Source: Thermoplasmata archaeon (GTDB lineage: Archaea; Thermoplasmatota; Thermoplasmata; Lutacidiplasmatales; UBA184). From it: a DNA stretch of 55,024 nucleotides. Shown one piece after another: positions 4,416 through 52,167 of the stretch. The stretch's first letter is position 1. The number at the start of each line of letters is the position of its first letter. Below the pieces are notes generated by a model. The model did no database searches. It was given only the letters and a program-made list of their open reading frames with translations, and was not told the DNA's origin. A program made the position numbers and the translations under genes. The stretch spans positions 1 to 55,024 of the forward strand of contig JAJZYH010000010.1 in the NCBI GenBank assembly GCA_021798195.1, given 5' to 3'.

Positions 4416-5150
4416 TCATAATCCTTCGTCCTCCGGTGCCCCCGCGGGGGAGGGACCCGACCCGCCCCAGCGCTCGAGCGGCTCGCCGGGATGCAGGGAA
4501 CGGCTCACCCGGGTCACGGTGGCCCAGGTGCGGCGGACATGGGGGGGGAGGTCCCGGTGCCGGGCGAGGAGATCCTCGAGATGTCGCCGGGTGCGCGGGT
4601 CCGACGGATACCCGGTGCCCATCTCCTCCCCCAGGGTGCGCGCCAGCTGGACCATCCGACGGTCCCGGGTCACCTTCGCCACGATGCTCGCCGCCGAGAC
4701 GAGGGGCAGATCCCGGTCCGCCTTGTGGCGCGCCACGATGCGGACCCGGGGGAACGACGGAGGAAGCTGCCTTCGGAGATGACGGGCGAACCGGTCCGCG
4801 TCCACATCGCAGGCGTCCGCGAGGACGAGGCCGGGGGAACAGCGCCGGATGAGGCCCCCCATGAGCGCCACCTCGAGCGCGTTGAGCCCCGGCCCGCGGA
4901 CCCACCGGTCCACCTCGGGAGGGTCCGCCCAGGCGGCGAGGAGGGTCCCGCGCCGGCAGAGTTCCTCGAAGACCTCTTCGCGCCGGCGGGCGCTGAGCGC
5001 CTTCGAGTCCCTGGTGCCCAGTCCCCGGAGCTCCGCGTCGATCCCCTCCGAGGCCGGCACCGCGAAGCCGCCCACCACGAGGGGTCCCAGGAGGCTTCCC
5101 CGGCCCGCCTCATCGAGCCCCAGGACCCAACGGAACTCCCCCGGAGGCAT
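4416..5150 (-). CDS. rnhB: Ribonuclease HII
   Basis: A 244-residue RNase HII, which cuts RNA strands and single ribonucleotides embedded in DNA. The catalytic signature GLDEAGRGSLLGPLVVGG is at residues 10-27 and supplies the first Asp and Glu. TRDSKALSARRR, LADACDVDAD and a later SAASIVAKVTRD carry the rest of the active site. A minus-strand CTATTTCAT near 5180-5188 is a plausible TATA box, and the same AT-rich patch can serve the divergent aldolase gene. The C-terminus is short and charged, and no PCNA-binding motif is evident. Confidence 0.94.
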   Translation of the reverse strand: MPPGEFRWVLGLDEAGRGSLLGPLVVGGFAVPASEGIDAELRGLGTRDSKALSARRREEVFEELCRRGTLLAAWADPPEVDRWVRGPGLNALEVALMGGLIRRCSPGLVLADACDVDADRFARHLRRQLPPSFPRVRIVARHKADRDLPLVSAASIVAKVTRDRRMVQLARTLGEEMGTGYPSDPRTRRHLEDLLARHRDLPPHVRRTWATVTRVSRSLHPGEPLERWGGSGPSPAGAPEDEGL

Positions 5151-50377: not shown

Positions 50378-50980
50378 TCAGCCCGAAGCCGCAGAGGCCC
50401 CGGAGTCCGACGCCGTCGACGATCTCCCGTAATCGGAGGAGATCTTCCGGGACTCCCGGTGGCCGCACCGGCTGCAGAGGAGGTCCTTCCCCGTGGAGGT
50501 CATGGGTCCGTGGCATTCGGAGCAACGGGCCGATACAACGCCCAGGTCGGCGGACTGCGTGGTGAGCTTCACCGTGGGGTAGCCCTGGAGGACCCGGGCC
50601 TTGATGAGATCGCCCACGGCGAACTCCCGGTTCAGGTTCTCCACGTAGGACTCCTTCGCCTTGGAGATGTGCACGGTCCCCTCGGGGAAGCCGGGGACCG
50701 CCCGTTCCGTCTCGGTGGAGCGGAGCACGGTGCAGACCAGCATGGCGCTCTTGATCTCGTCCACGCGGGCATACACCGTTTCCCCCTCGGAGAGGTGCGG
50801 GATGTCGTGCAGGGCCCGCACGGTCACGGACCGGGCCTGATTGTCGTAGGACGGGTGTCCCAAGAGGGCCGCGAACACCTGGCCATTGTGCTCATAGGTC
50901 CCGCGCCCCGGTACGAATTCCTCCGCGGTCCCCAGGAGCTCCCCGGGCAGCACCAATTTCTCCTTCGTTTCGGCGGTCAT
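50378..50980 (-). CDS. csl4: Exosome RNA-binding subunit Csl4
   Basis: A 200-residue cap subunit of the archaeal RNA exosome. An N-terminal beta domain (VLPGELLGTAEEFVPGRGTYE), an S1 domain (VYARVDEIKSAMLVCTVL to FAVGDLIKARVLQG) and a zinc ribbon (ARCSECHGPM, LLCSRCGHRE) occur in the standard order. A Ser/Ala-rich tail follows. Its ATG overlaps the methyltransferase stop (ATGA). Rrp4, Rrp41 and Rrp42 are not in the window. Confidence 0.93.
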   Translation of the reverse strand: MTAETKEKLVLPGELLGTAEEFVPGRGTYEHNGQVFAALLGHPSYDNQARSVTVRALHDIPHLSEGETVYARVDEIKSAMLVCTVLRSTETERAVPGFPEGTVHISKAKESYVENLNREFAVGDLIKARVLQGYPTVKLTTQSADLGVVSARCSECHGPMTSTGKDLLCSRCGHRESRKISSDYGRSSTASDSGASAASG

Positions 50981-51657
50981 GGATCTCTTGCCTTTCGCAG
51001 AACCCAGCGGTCCACGGTGATCCACCCCCGGCGCTCCCGATGGTGGGGGAACGTGGGGGGAATGGCCCATGCCTCGCGCTGGTGTTCCTCGATGATGACG
51101 GGCCGTCCCAGTGTCCATCGGTGTATAAACGTTTGTGATGCGGCGTTGGAGAACATGTGGAGGGAGCCTCCGGGAGGAAGGGCCACCCAGGCACATTCGA
51201 GGAAGGGGCGGTCCGCGTGCTTCCGTTGCGCCCCAAACGGAGGGTTCATCACCACCGTCTCCGCGGAAAGGGGCTCCGCGGGTGGGATCTCGCTCTTTAA
51301 CCAGTTCACTTCGATCCCCAGGGTGTCCGCATTTCGCCGCGCCACCGCAAGCGCCTTTGGGTCCATGTCCACGCCCAGTACGGTGGAGGCCCCCAGGAGG
51401 GCGGCCCCGATGGCGAGGATCCCGGTACCGCATCCCAGGTCCAGGACCGTTCTCCCCCGGATGTCCCCCCGGCCCAGGGCGTCCCACAGGAGGCCGGACG
51501 CGCTCTGCGGGGGCGTCGCGACCTGTTCGGTACCAGCTTCCGCACCGGGGAACCCTTCCAGACGGGCCAGGAGGCGGGTGAGCGCGGTCCTCCGGAGAGC
51601 CCCGGGCAGGGATGGGGTCCCGCCCGGCGGCTGGACCGGGACCTGGGGTACGCTCAT
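50977..51657 (-). CDS. METTL5-like rRNA N6-adenine methyltransferase
   Basis: A 226-residue SAM-dependent methyltransferase. TEQVATPPQSASGLL near 43-57 matches the family's Q-Y/V-x-T-P segment, the SAM site is VLDLGCGTGILAIGAALLGA near 71-90 and the N6-adenine catalytic motif is NPPFGAQRKHADRPF near 139. METTL5 homologues modify an adenine in small-subunit rRNA; the target here is inferred. The only ATG start (51657) begins with the discriminator base of the tRNA-Leu just upstream; no other ATG, GTG or TTG is in frame for at least 60 codons. Csl4 follows with an ATGA overlap. Confidence 0.9.
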   Translation of the reverse strand: MSVPQVPVQPPGGTPSLPGALRRTALTRLLARLEGFPGAEAGTEQVATPPQSASGLLWDALGRGDIRGRTVLDLGCGTGILAIGAALLGASTVLGVDMDPKALAVARRNADTLGIEVNWLKSEIPPAEPLSAETVVMNPPFGAQRKHADRPFLECAWVALPPGGSLHMFSNAASQTFIHRWTLGRPVIIEEHQREAWAIPPTFPHHRERRGWITVDRWVLRKARDP

Positions 51658-51770
51658 GCGGGGAGCCGGATTCGAACCGGCGGACGCCTACGCGACAGGA
51701 TCTCCCGTCGGTCGCCTCGATGCGGACCGATCTTAAGTCCCGCGCCGTTGCCAGGCTGAGCCATCCCCGC
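51657..51770 (-). tRNA. tRNA-Leu(UAA) with a 30-nt intron
   Basis: Acceptor arms GCGGGGA and TCCCCGC pair fully, the T arm is GCCGG-TTCGAAT-CCGGC and a long variable arm (CGC-GTAG-GCG) marks a class II tRNA. The anticodon loop CTTAAGA gives UAA, for leucine UUA codons. After G37 a 30-base intron starts ATCGGTCCGC and ends CGACGGGAG; removal restores stem CGGGA/TCCTG. The intron holds a TCGGTC/GACCGA helix and AGATC is repeated at both junctions, a relaxed bulge-helix-bulge. The mature length is 84 with A73 at 51657. CCA is not encoded. It lies 11 bases after the PRC-barrel stop, with no TATA box of its own. Confidence 0.92.
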
Positions 51771-51781
51771 GTGGGGACGTG

Positions 51782-52096
51782 TCACCGGGAGGTCGACGGA
51801 ACGCCCTTCGCGGAAGCCCCGACGGCCTCTCCCGGCTTCCCGGCAGCGCCCCGCTTCACGGACACGCGCTTGGGGAAATACTTCAATAAGATCACGTCGT
51901 TCACGGCAGAGACCCACCGGTACGGCACGTTCACGCTCTTCGAGTCCTCCACGAGCAGCTGGTTCGTCTCGGAAACGAAGAGCCCGTCGACGCGCGCACC
52001 CTCCACATCCACCACGACGTTCGTGACGTCCCCCAGGAGCCGTCCGTCCTGGGTATAGATCTGCCGCCCGATGAGCTCCGTCATTTCCACCAACAT
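51782..52096 (-). CDS. PRC-barrel domain protein
   Basis: A 104-residue protein with a PRC-barrel: ELIGRQIYTQDGRLLGDVTNVVVD (7-30), a second strand pair around DGLFVSETNQLLV, and VPYRWVSAVNDVILLKYFP (57-75). Archaeal stand-alone PRC-barrel proteins are widespread and small; some act in cell division or RNA handling, but this one's role is unknown. A CACTTAAGC element near 52126-52134 gives a promoter about 33 bases upstream. It leads the tRNA-methyltransferase-Csl4 run. Confidence 0.82.
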   Translation of the reverse strand: MLVEMTELIGRQIYTQDGRLLGDVTNVVVDVEGARVDGLFVSETNQLLVEDSKSVNVPYRWVSAVNDVILLKYFPKRVSVKRGAAGKPGEAVGASAKGVPSTSR

Positions 52097-52167
52097 TCGC
52101 GAAGTCCCCCGGGGCGCGACGTCCTTGGTTGCTTAAGTGCTTTTTCCTGCAGGAGATGTCGTCCCGT

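Follow-up and report, generated by a model that had tools for sequence, protein, structure and literature searches.

A single UUA codon retained in a PRC-barrel gene directly upstream of tRNA-Leu(UAA) suggests a possible cis-acting loop in a family of archaea

The 55,024-nt stretch of a Thermoplasmata archaeon genome analysed here (the window) contains a tRNA-Leu(UAA) gene placed between genes for a PRC-barrel protein and a METTL5-like methyltransferase, and the PRC-barrel gene carries the otherwise very rare UUA codon exactly once. Comparison with related genomes showed that this codon is kept in the PRC-barrel gene, and that it usually reappears elsewhere in the frame when its customary site is lost. 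The explanation that we consider best, with a probability of roughly 0.55, is a self-sensing loop in which the PRC-barrel gene, the tRNA, the methyltransferase and the exosome subunit Csl4 would form a single unit. In the window and most of its closest relatives, the last base of the tRNA is also the first base of the methyltransferase start codon.

Results

Gene identities and layout

The genes of the locus lie on the minus strand (Table 1) in the order LIG-PRC-tRNA-Leu-(METTL5)-Csl4, which is conserved throughout the archaeal family, and the ATG of Csl4 overlaps the TGA of the methyltransferase gene as ATGA. The tRNA gene was found by ARAGORN with introns allowed, and the Rfam tRNA model gave the same span above its cut-off; ARAGORN run without introns misses tRNA-Leu(UAA) in the window. 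It has a cloverleaf, a UAA anticodon, a long variable arm and A73, and the corresponding genes of relatives carry introns of 20-44 nt at the same place. It provides the sole UAA anticodon among the 30 tRNA genes examined in this 96% complete genome, a count in which introns hide some tRNAs.

Table 1. Features of the tRNA-Leu(UAA) locus, in window coordinates
Feature	Position	Strand	Remarks
PRC promoter candidate: TATA-like box CTTAAG, A-rich stretch just 5'	52132..52137	-	36-41 nt before the PRC ATG
PRC-barrel protein gene, 104 aa	51782..52096	-	Pfam PF05239
Codon 70 of the PRC-barrel gene, its lone UUA	51887..51889	-	
Gap from PRC stop codon to tRNA 5' end, 11 nt	51771..51781	-	
tRNA-Leu(UAA), mature 84 nt, CCA not encoded	51657..51770	-	ARAGORN with introns and Rfam tRNA model
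tRNA-Leu(UAA) intron, 30 nt, after position 37	51702..51731	-	ARAGORN with introns
Shared base: tRNA A73 and A of the methyltransferase ATG	51657..51657	-	
Predicted METTL5-like methyltransferase, 226 aa	50977..51657	-	PDB PH1948, human METTL5, PF05175
Csl4 exosome subunit	50378..50980	-	NF034126, E=2e-52
SHMT-like gene, after Csl4	50332..	-	

The methyltransferase matched PH1948 (PDB 1wy7; E=9.7e-31, residues 22-220) and human METTL5 (6h2u; E=5.2e-19, residues 25-216) as well as PF05175, and its NPPF catalytic motif (residues 138-141) is invariant across the alignment. It is predicted to be a METTL5-like rRNA adenine methyltransferase. The small protein encoded upstream of the tRNA matched PF05239 above the cut-off (E=8.6e-13) and the PRC-barrel chains 8qzo and 8onw (E=4.5e-15 and 5e-12, respectively).

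For comparison, 103 genomes of the family, mostly metagenome-assembled, were searched; the methyltransferase was present in 90, and the 3' end of tRNA-Leu could be placed directly upstream of it in 81. A tree of neighbouring proteins grouped the genus of the window with genera g2, g3 and g4 (SH-aLRT 86, a moderate value), as sister to a branch of g5, g6 and g7 (99).

A UUA codon kept in the PRC-barrel gene

Crude gene calling gave six UUA codons among 14,020 in the window (0.43 per 1000), and the six genes around the junction contain only two, one in the PRC-barrel gene and the other in the methyltransferase gene. Across 86 genomes of the family, the PRC-barrel gene had a single UUA in 79, two in 1 and none in 6; genomes with any UUA in this gene thus numbered 80, against about 1.7 expected from the usage of neighbouring genes (24 UUA in approximately 103,000 codons of LIG, METTL5, Csl4 and SHMT combined). 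UUA was also weakly in excess in the methyltransferase genes of the window's branch (3 in 1,958 codons). Another of the very few UUA codons of the window is the final codon of an RNase HII-like open reading frame (4416-5150, minus strand).

In the sister branch, codon 48 of the PRC-barrel gene is UUA in 65 of the 74 genomes. Six of the eight other conserved leucine columns contain no UUA in that branch, the remaining two contain one or two that are relocated codons only, and the wobble bases adjoining codon 48 vary freely. Among the genomes without UUA at codon 48, 14 of 20 have a UUA elsewhere in the gene, compared with 1 of the 66 that retain it (Fisher p=1.2e-10, kinship ignored), and the relocated codon occupies eight other alignment columns (9, 29, 39, 47, 70, 71, 103 and 111). 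On the tree, at least eight changes of UUA48 are demanded; independent pairs ran approximately 5:0 in the same direction, with a median sign-test p of 0.06 from these few pairs. In one genome (G051), columns 47 and 48 are both UUA, which is what an intermediate would look like. The reading frames were also unequal, since TTA occurred 81, 0 and 5 times in frames 0, 1 and 2 of the PRC-barrel genes and 14, 0 and 0 times in the genomes with a relocated codon. The bias to frame 0, together with the relocation, indicates selection for a translated codon rather than for a DNA site or a particular residue. We regard selection for a UUA codon in this gene as very well supported by these sequence comparisons.

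Six genomes keep the gene arrangement with a PRC-barrel gene free of UUA (G003, G010, G011, G013, G030 and G064). The distance from the UUA to the PRC stop ranges from 4 to 91 codons, a variability that makes a position-fixed attenuator unlikely. No tRNA-Leu lies downstream of the PRC relatives found beyond the family, and UUA is absent from most of those whose G+C content is at least 0.55.

Transcription signals around the tRNA

The PRC stop lies between -10 and 20 nt from the tRNA in all 77 of the family genomes compared. The gap usually measures 4-7 nt in sister-branch genomes and 8-13 nt in the branch of the window; in one genome of the latter (L216, G001), the PRC-barrel frame enters the tRNA gene by 10 nt before its stop, such that the 5' end of the tRNA is shared too. 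An A+T peak (0.61-0.95) was found at -41 to -36 of the PRC ATG in 66 sister-branch genomes, and the CTTAAG of the window stands at the same place. No TATA peak precedes tRNA-Leu(UAA) in the window genome or in most genomes of the family. An A+T-rich box precedes most other tRNA genes of the window genome by 25-45 nt, and the upstream box score of tRNA-Leu(UAA) is the joint lowest among them (3 of 6). In four g3 genomes, CTTAGAG or CTTACAG occurs approximately 30 nt before the tRNA, at the end of the PRC-barrel gene, and may be a tRNA promoter. Since the tRNA has no visible promoter and the PRC-barrel gene with its TATA box is close by, the tRNA is most likely transcribed with the PRC-barrel gene, and with high probability the locus has an operon structure. 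Outside the family, tRNA-Leu was found neither behind PRC nor before METTL5. The anticodon loop of the tRNA (51732-51737, minus strand) and the TATA box of the PRC-barrel gene consist of the identical hexamer, CTTAAG.

The upstream signals of the methyltransferase gene differ between the branches. Where the spacer measures 48-120 nt in the sister branch, as it does for 41 genes, the interval from -30 to -25 is A+T-rich (0.54 versus 0.25 over the spacer; reached in none of 10,000 permutations), with a TATA-like box at -28 to -25 that probably reflects a separate leaderless promoter for these genes. No such box was seen in the 17 sister-branch genes with shorter spacers, whose leaders are enriched in Shine-Dalgarno-like matches. 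In the branch of the window, the same interval falls inside the tRNA and reads GCGTCC, GCGTTC or GCGTAC; we therefore rejected an own leaderless promoter there, given the lack of an A+T box at that position. No Shine-Dalgarno-like match of at least five bases precedes the methyltransferase ATG. In this branch the gene appears to depend on RNA running through the tRNA. The promoter-like box of the sister branch implies that coupling to the tRNA is dispensable and not a general principle; the proposed tRNA-methyltransferase coupling is, on these sequences, limited to the window's branch.

The shared base

The original prediction held that A73 of tRNA-Leu(UAA) is the A of the methyltransferase ATG, that no other start lies in frame for at least 60 codons, and that a cut after A73 would remove the start codon. 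Our analysis confirmed all three: one base serves as both, the open frame begins there, and the next in-frame ATG, GTG or TTG is a GTG at codon 96, leaving the ATG of A73 as the sole usable start. Its comparison of the junction in related genomes gave a divided outcome. The overlap was kept in eight of the nine gene-bearing genomes of the window's branch (g1, 1/1; g3, 4/4; g2, 3/4), the exception being G001 (A73-TC-GTG), and chance or assembly error as its source is ruled out by this sharing. In the sister branch the two genes stand apart, which the prediction had named as evidence against it.

The ATG of A73 is the only start before the conserved core in the window genome and in G009, G003 and G005; further in-frame starts exist in G006, G007 and G008. 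The N-termini of the three g2 genomes with the overlap read M-x4-W-[KR]-x-S-[ST]-L, and the underlying codons show numerous synonymous differences, which indicates that translation begins no later than codon 6. From that codon, immediately behind the shared ATG, runs the conserved W-[KR]-x-S; the shared ATG is the sole start there. A downstream alternative start was accordingly rejected for g2, as it was for the window, where none precedes codon 96.

Of 72 sister-branch junctions, only two have an ATG at A73, both out of frame; 60 have T after position 73. The spacing between tRNA and methyltransferase gene is 12-100 nt (218 and 338 nt in two genomes), with most starts about 50-65 nt downstream. 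Three genomes of genus g4 (L224, L226 and L227), within the window's branch, have lost the methyltransferase gene, and tRNA-Leu is followed by Csl4; a TATA-like box (CTTATAGA or CTTAAGAA) precedes Csl4 in g4. One g4 genome (G010) retains TG after A73, possibly a relic of the start codon.

Folding of the junction RNA gave no extra stability relative to shuffled sequences (z=-0.13) and no usable switch. The leader sequence CGUCCCC (51762-51779, minus strand) can pair with tRNA bases 3-9 (GGGGAUG) and may compete with the acceptor stem; conservation of this pairing in relatives was not seen by eye. In L024, L025 and L032, no in-frame ATG, GTG or TTG lies between the tRNA and the conserved core of the methyltransferase, and its start there must be non-standard or elsewhere. 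Position 73 of tRNA-Leu(UAA) is U instead of A in 13 of the 72 sister-branch genomes (L017, L021, L033, L035, L036, L043, L045, L058, L064, L066, L070, L090 and L095). A73 is a main identity base of leucine tRNAs, and U73 is thus unusual.

Discussion

A proposed self-sensing loop

Several elements can be read directly in the genomes: the conserved overlap, the common gene order, the lack of a tRNA promoter at this locus, and the in-frame UUA with its relocation. From them we infer one transcript, stalling at the UUA, feedback and the fates of individual RNA molecules. Transcription from the PRC TATA box would yield a single unit running from the PRC-barrel gene through tRNA-Leu(UAA) and the methyltransferase gene to Csl4. 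Excision of tRNAs by RNase P and tRNase Z is an established archaeal pathway, and these enzymes would release tRNA-Leu(UAA) from the mRNA. If only tRNA-Leu(UAA) reads the UUA of the PRC-barrel gene, finishing the protein would require the tRNA encoded just past its stop. When this tRNA is scarce, ribosomes would stall at the UUA and never get to the tRNA boundary; when it is plentiful, the protein would be completed and ribosomes would terminate against the 5' end of the tRNA. The decisive point would be whether ribosomes arrive at the PRC stop next to the tRNA. The most likely effect would be a gated synthesis of the PRC-barrel protein and an adjusted amount of released tRNA, and negative feedback is possible if ribosomes ending translation pile up at the 5' end of the tRNA. 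In the window's branch, a molecule cut after A73 would give no methyltransferase, and a minority left uncut or cut one base early may supply enough enzyme.

The probability given above applies to this loop; that a cis loop of some kind links the rare-codon tRNA to its own transcript also seems to us a little better than an even bet. More tentative, at somewhat under even odds, is the full version, in which the tRNA gene would control itself in cis, the UUA would sense charged tRNA, and stalling or termination at the boundary would set the yield of tRNA, PRC-barrel protein and, in the window's branch, methyltransferase with Csl4. Counting against the loop are the six genomes that keep the arrangement without a UUA, the candidate tRNA promoter in g3, the CTTAAG of the anticodon loop as a potential TATA box, the dispensable link between methyltransferase and tRNA, and the position of the UUA, which is not fixed. 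The PRC product is possibly a cell-division factor. CdpB1/B2 are PRC-barrel proteins that stabilise the Haloferax divisome (PMC12186497); the small protein studied here, which is widespread in the class, shares a family resemblance only, and its role is putative.

Alternative explanations

The original prediction proposed that the same transcript could give either a tRNA or the methyltransferase. In its regulated form, with Csl4 coupled to the methyltransferase, this would make tRNA processing bear on both rRNA modification and the exosome. The proposal fits the anatomy, with an overlap that is real and kept and whose A is the window's sole start-codon A, with no separate methyltransferase promoter, and with the Csl4 start overlapping the methyltransferase stop; the trade-off itself we infer. 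We consider regulation of this kind unlikely, though it is the strongest of the alternatives. It is possible in the window's branch and confined to it, as the sister-branch genes are separated from the tRNA and most have their own promoter-like box; g4 has lost the methyltransferase and has a TATA-like box before Csl4; and three genomes have further in-frame starts. Moreover, a start codon that is hard to move would be conserved without any need for regulation.

Slightly less probable is plain compaction, in which the overlap and the short PRC-tRNA gap would be neutral in a crowded operon and the tRNA would be tolerated there since the rare UUA needs little of it. The scarcity of UUA in the window agrees with this, and the frequent T after position 73 in the sister branch means that one mutation yields ATG. 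However, compaction leaves unexplained why the PRC-barrel gene has exactly one UUA and why this is placed elsewhere when the usual site is lost.

We think it improbable that a cut before A73 releases a leaderless AUG mRNA and that the tRNA lacking A73 is then repaired. A leaderless start would help where no Shine-Dalgarno-like match precedes the ATG, but we know of no tRNA 3' repair of this type in archaea. A one-A overlap resolved by 3' repair does have precedent: the human mitochondrial tRNA-Tyr and tRNA-Cys share one A73, and the upstream tRNA is repaired (PMC4284800). The E. coli machinery cannot do this; it keeps the upstream tRNA whole, and the downstream product is lost (PMC4284800). 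This mitochondrial pair is the closest known parallel to our junction; the resemblance lies in the one-base overlap at the discriminator, found here as well, and in a tRNA between coding units; the difference is that the mitochondrial base is shared with another tRNA, and here with an archaeal mRNA start codon.

Still less likely is an internal promoter, by which transcription of the methyltransferase gene would be driven from within the tRNA gene by the CTTAAG of the anticodon loop, identical to the PRC box, giving an RNA that tRNase Z could not cut. No A-rich stretch like that before the PRC box is present, CTTAAG is imposed on tRNA-Leu(UAA) generally by its UAA anticodon loop, and the sister-branch genes use a separate box. 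Least probable by far is that the TTA of the PRC-barrel gene acts as a DNA-level element such as an internal tRNA promoter: TTA is A+T-rich and some of its contexts are TATA-like (GGCTTATACC in G014 and G015), but the frame test, which found no frame-independent spread, led us to reject this, and the nearby wobble bases are free to vary while the distance to the stop is not fixed.

Comparison with known systems

The self-sensing loop combines features of two known types of control. In leader-peptide attenuation, how far a ribosome moves across cognate codons reports on charged tRNA, and the effect falls on that very RNA. Here the sensed tRNA would be the downstream product, and sensing would fall to a genuine protein gene; cognate codons fixed before an alternative hairpin were not found, given the variable distance from the UUA to the stop. 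The closest functional parallel is bldA of Streptomyces: genes there come under the control of a single tRNA through their UUA codons, and a loop between AdpA and BldA operates in trans (PMC2000904, PMC3814723). Both cases concern a high-GC genome with a tRNA-Leu(UAA) that reads a very rare codon, and here too UUA is rare and a single tRNA with a UAA anticodon was found. UUA codons would likewise serve as control points, with feedback between the tRNA and a UUA-bearing gene. The Streptomyces loop, however, acts in trans via a transcription factor, whereas the lone UUA described here lies in the gene directly before the tRNA, apparently on the same transcript; the domain, gene and arrangement also differ. 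The neighbourhood of METTL5 (PH1948-type) and Csl4 is found in other archaea as well, whereas only in this family does the tRNA stand in front of them, and only the window's branch has the methyltransferase start on A73.

A search of the literature on archaeal tRNA-mRNA co-transcription and tRNA autoregulation gave no match by title or abstract among open-access papers. We know of no tRNA gene that is autoregulated through a rare codon of its own within a co-transcribed gene, and the loop, if true, would be the first cis-acting loop between a tRNA and its codon known to us. At the methyltransferase junction, correct 3' processing of the tRNA would destroy the start codon of the next gene. A rarely needed tRNA would be held at the right level by an RNA that bears both the tRNA and the test codon, and the control of the supply of a single tRNA in archaea would become testable via one synonymous codon change.
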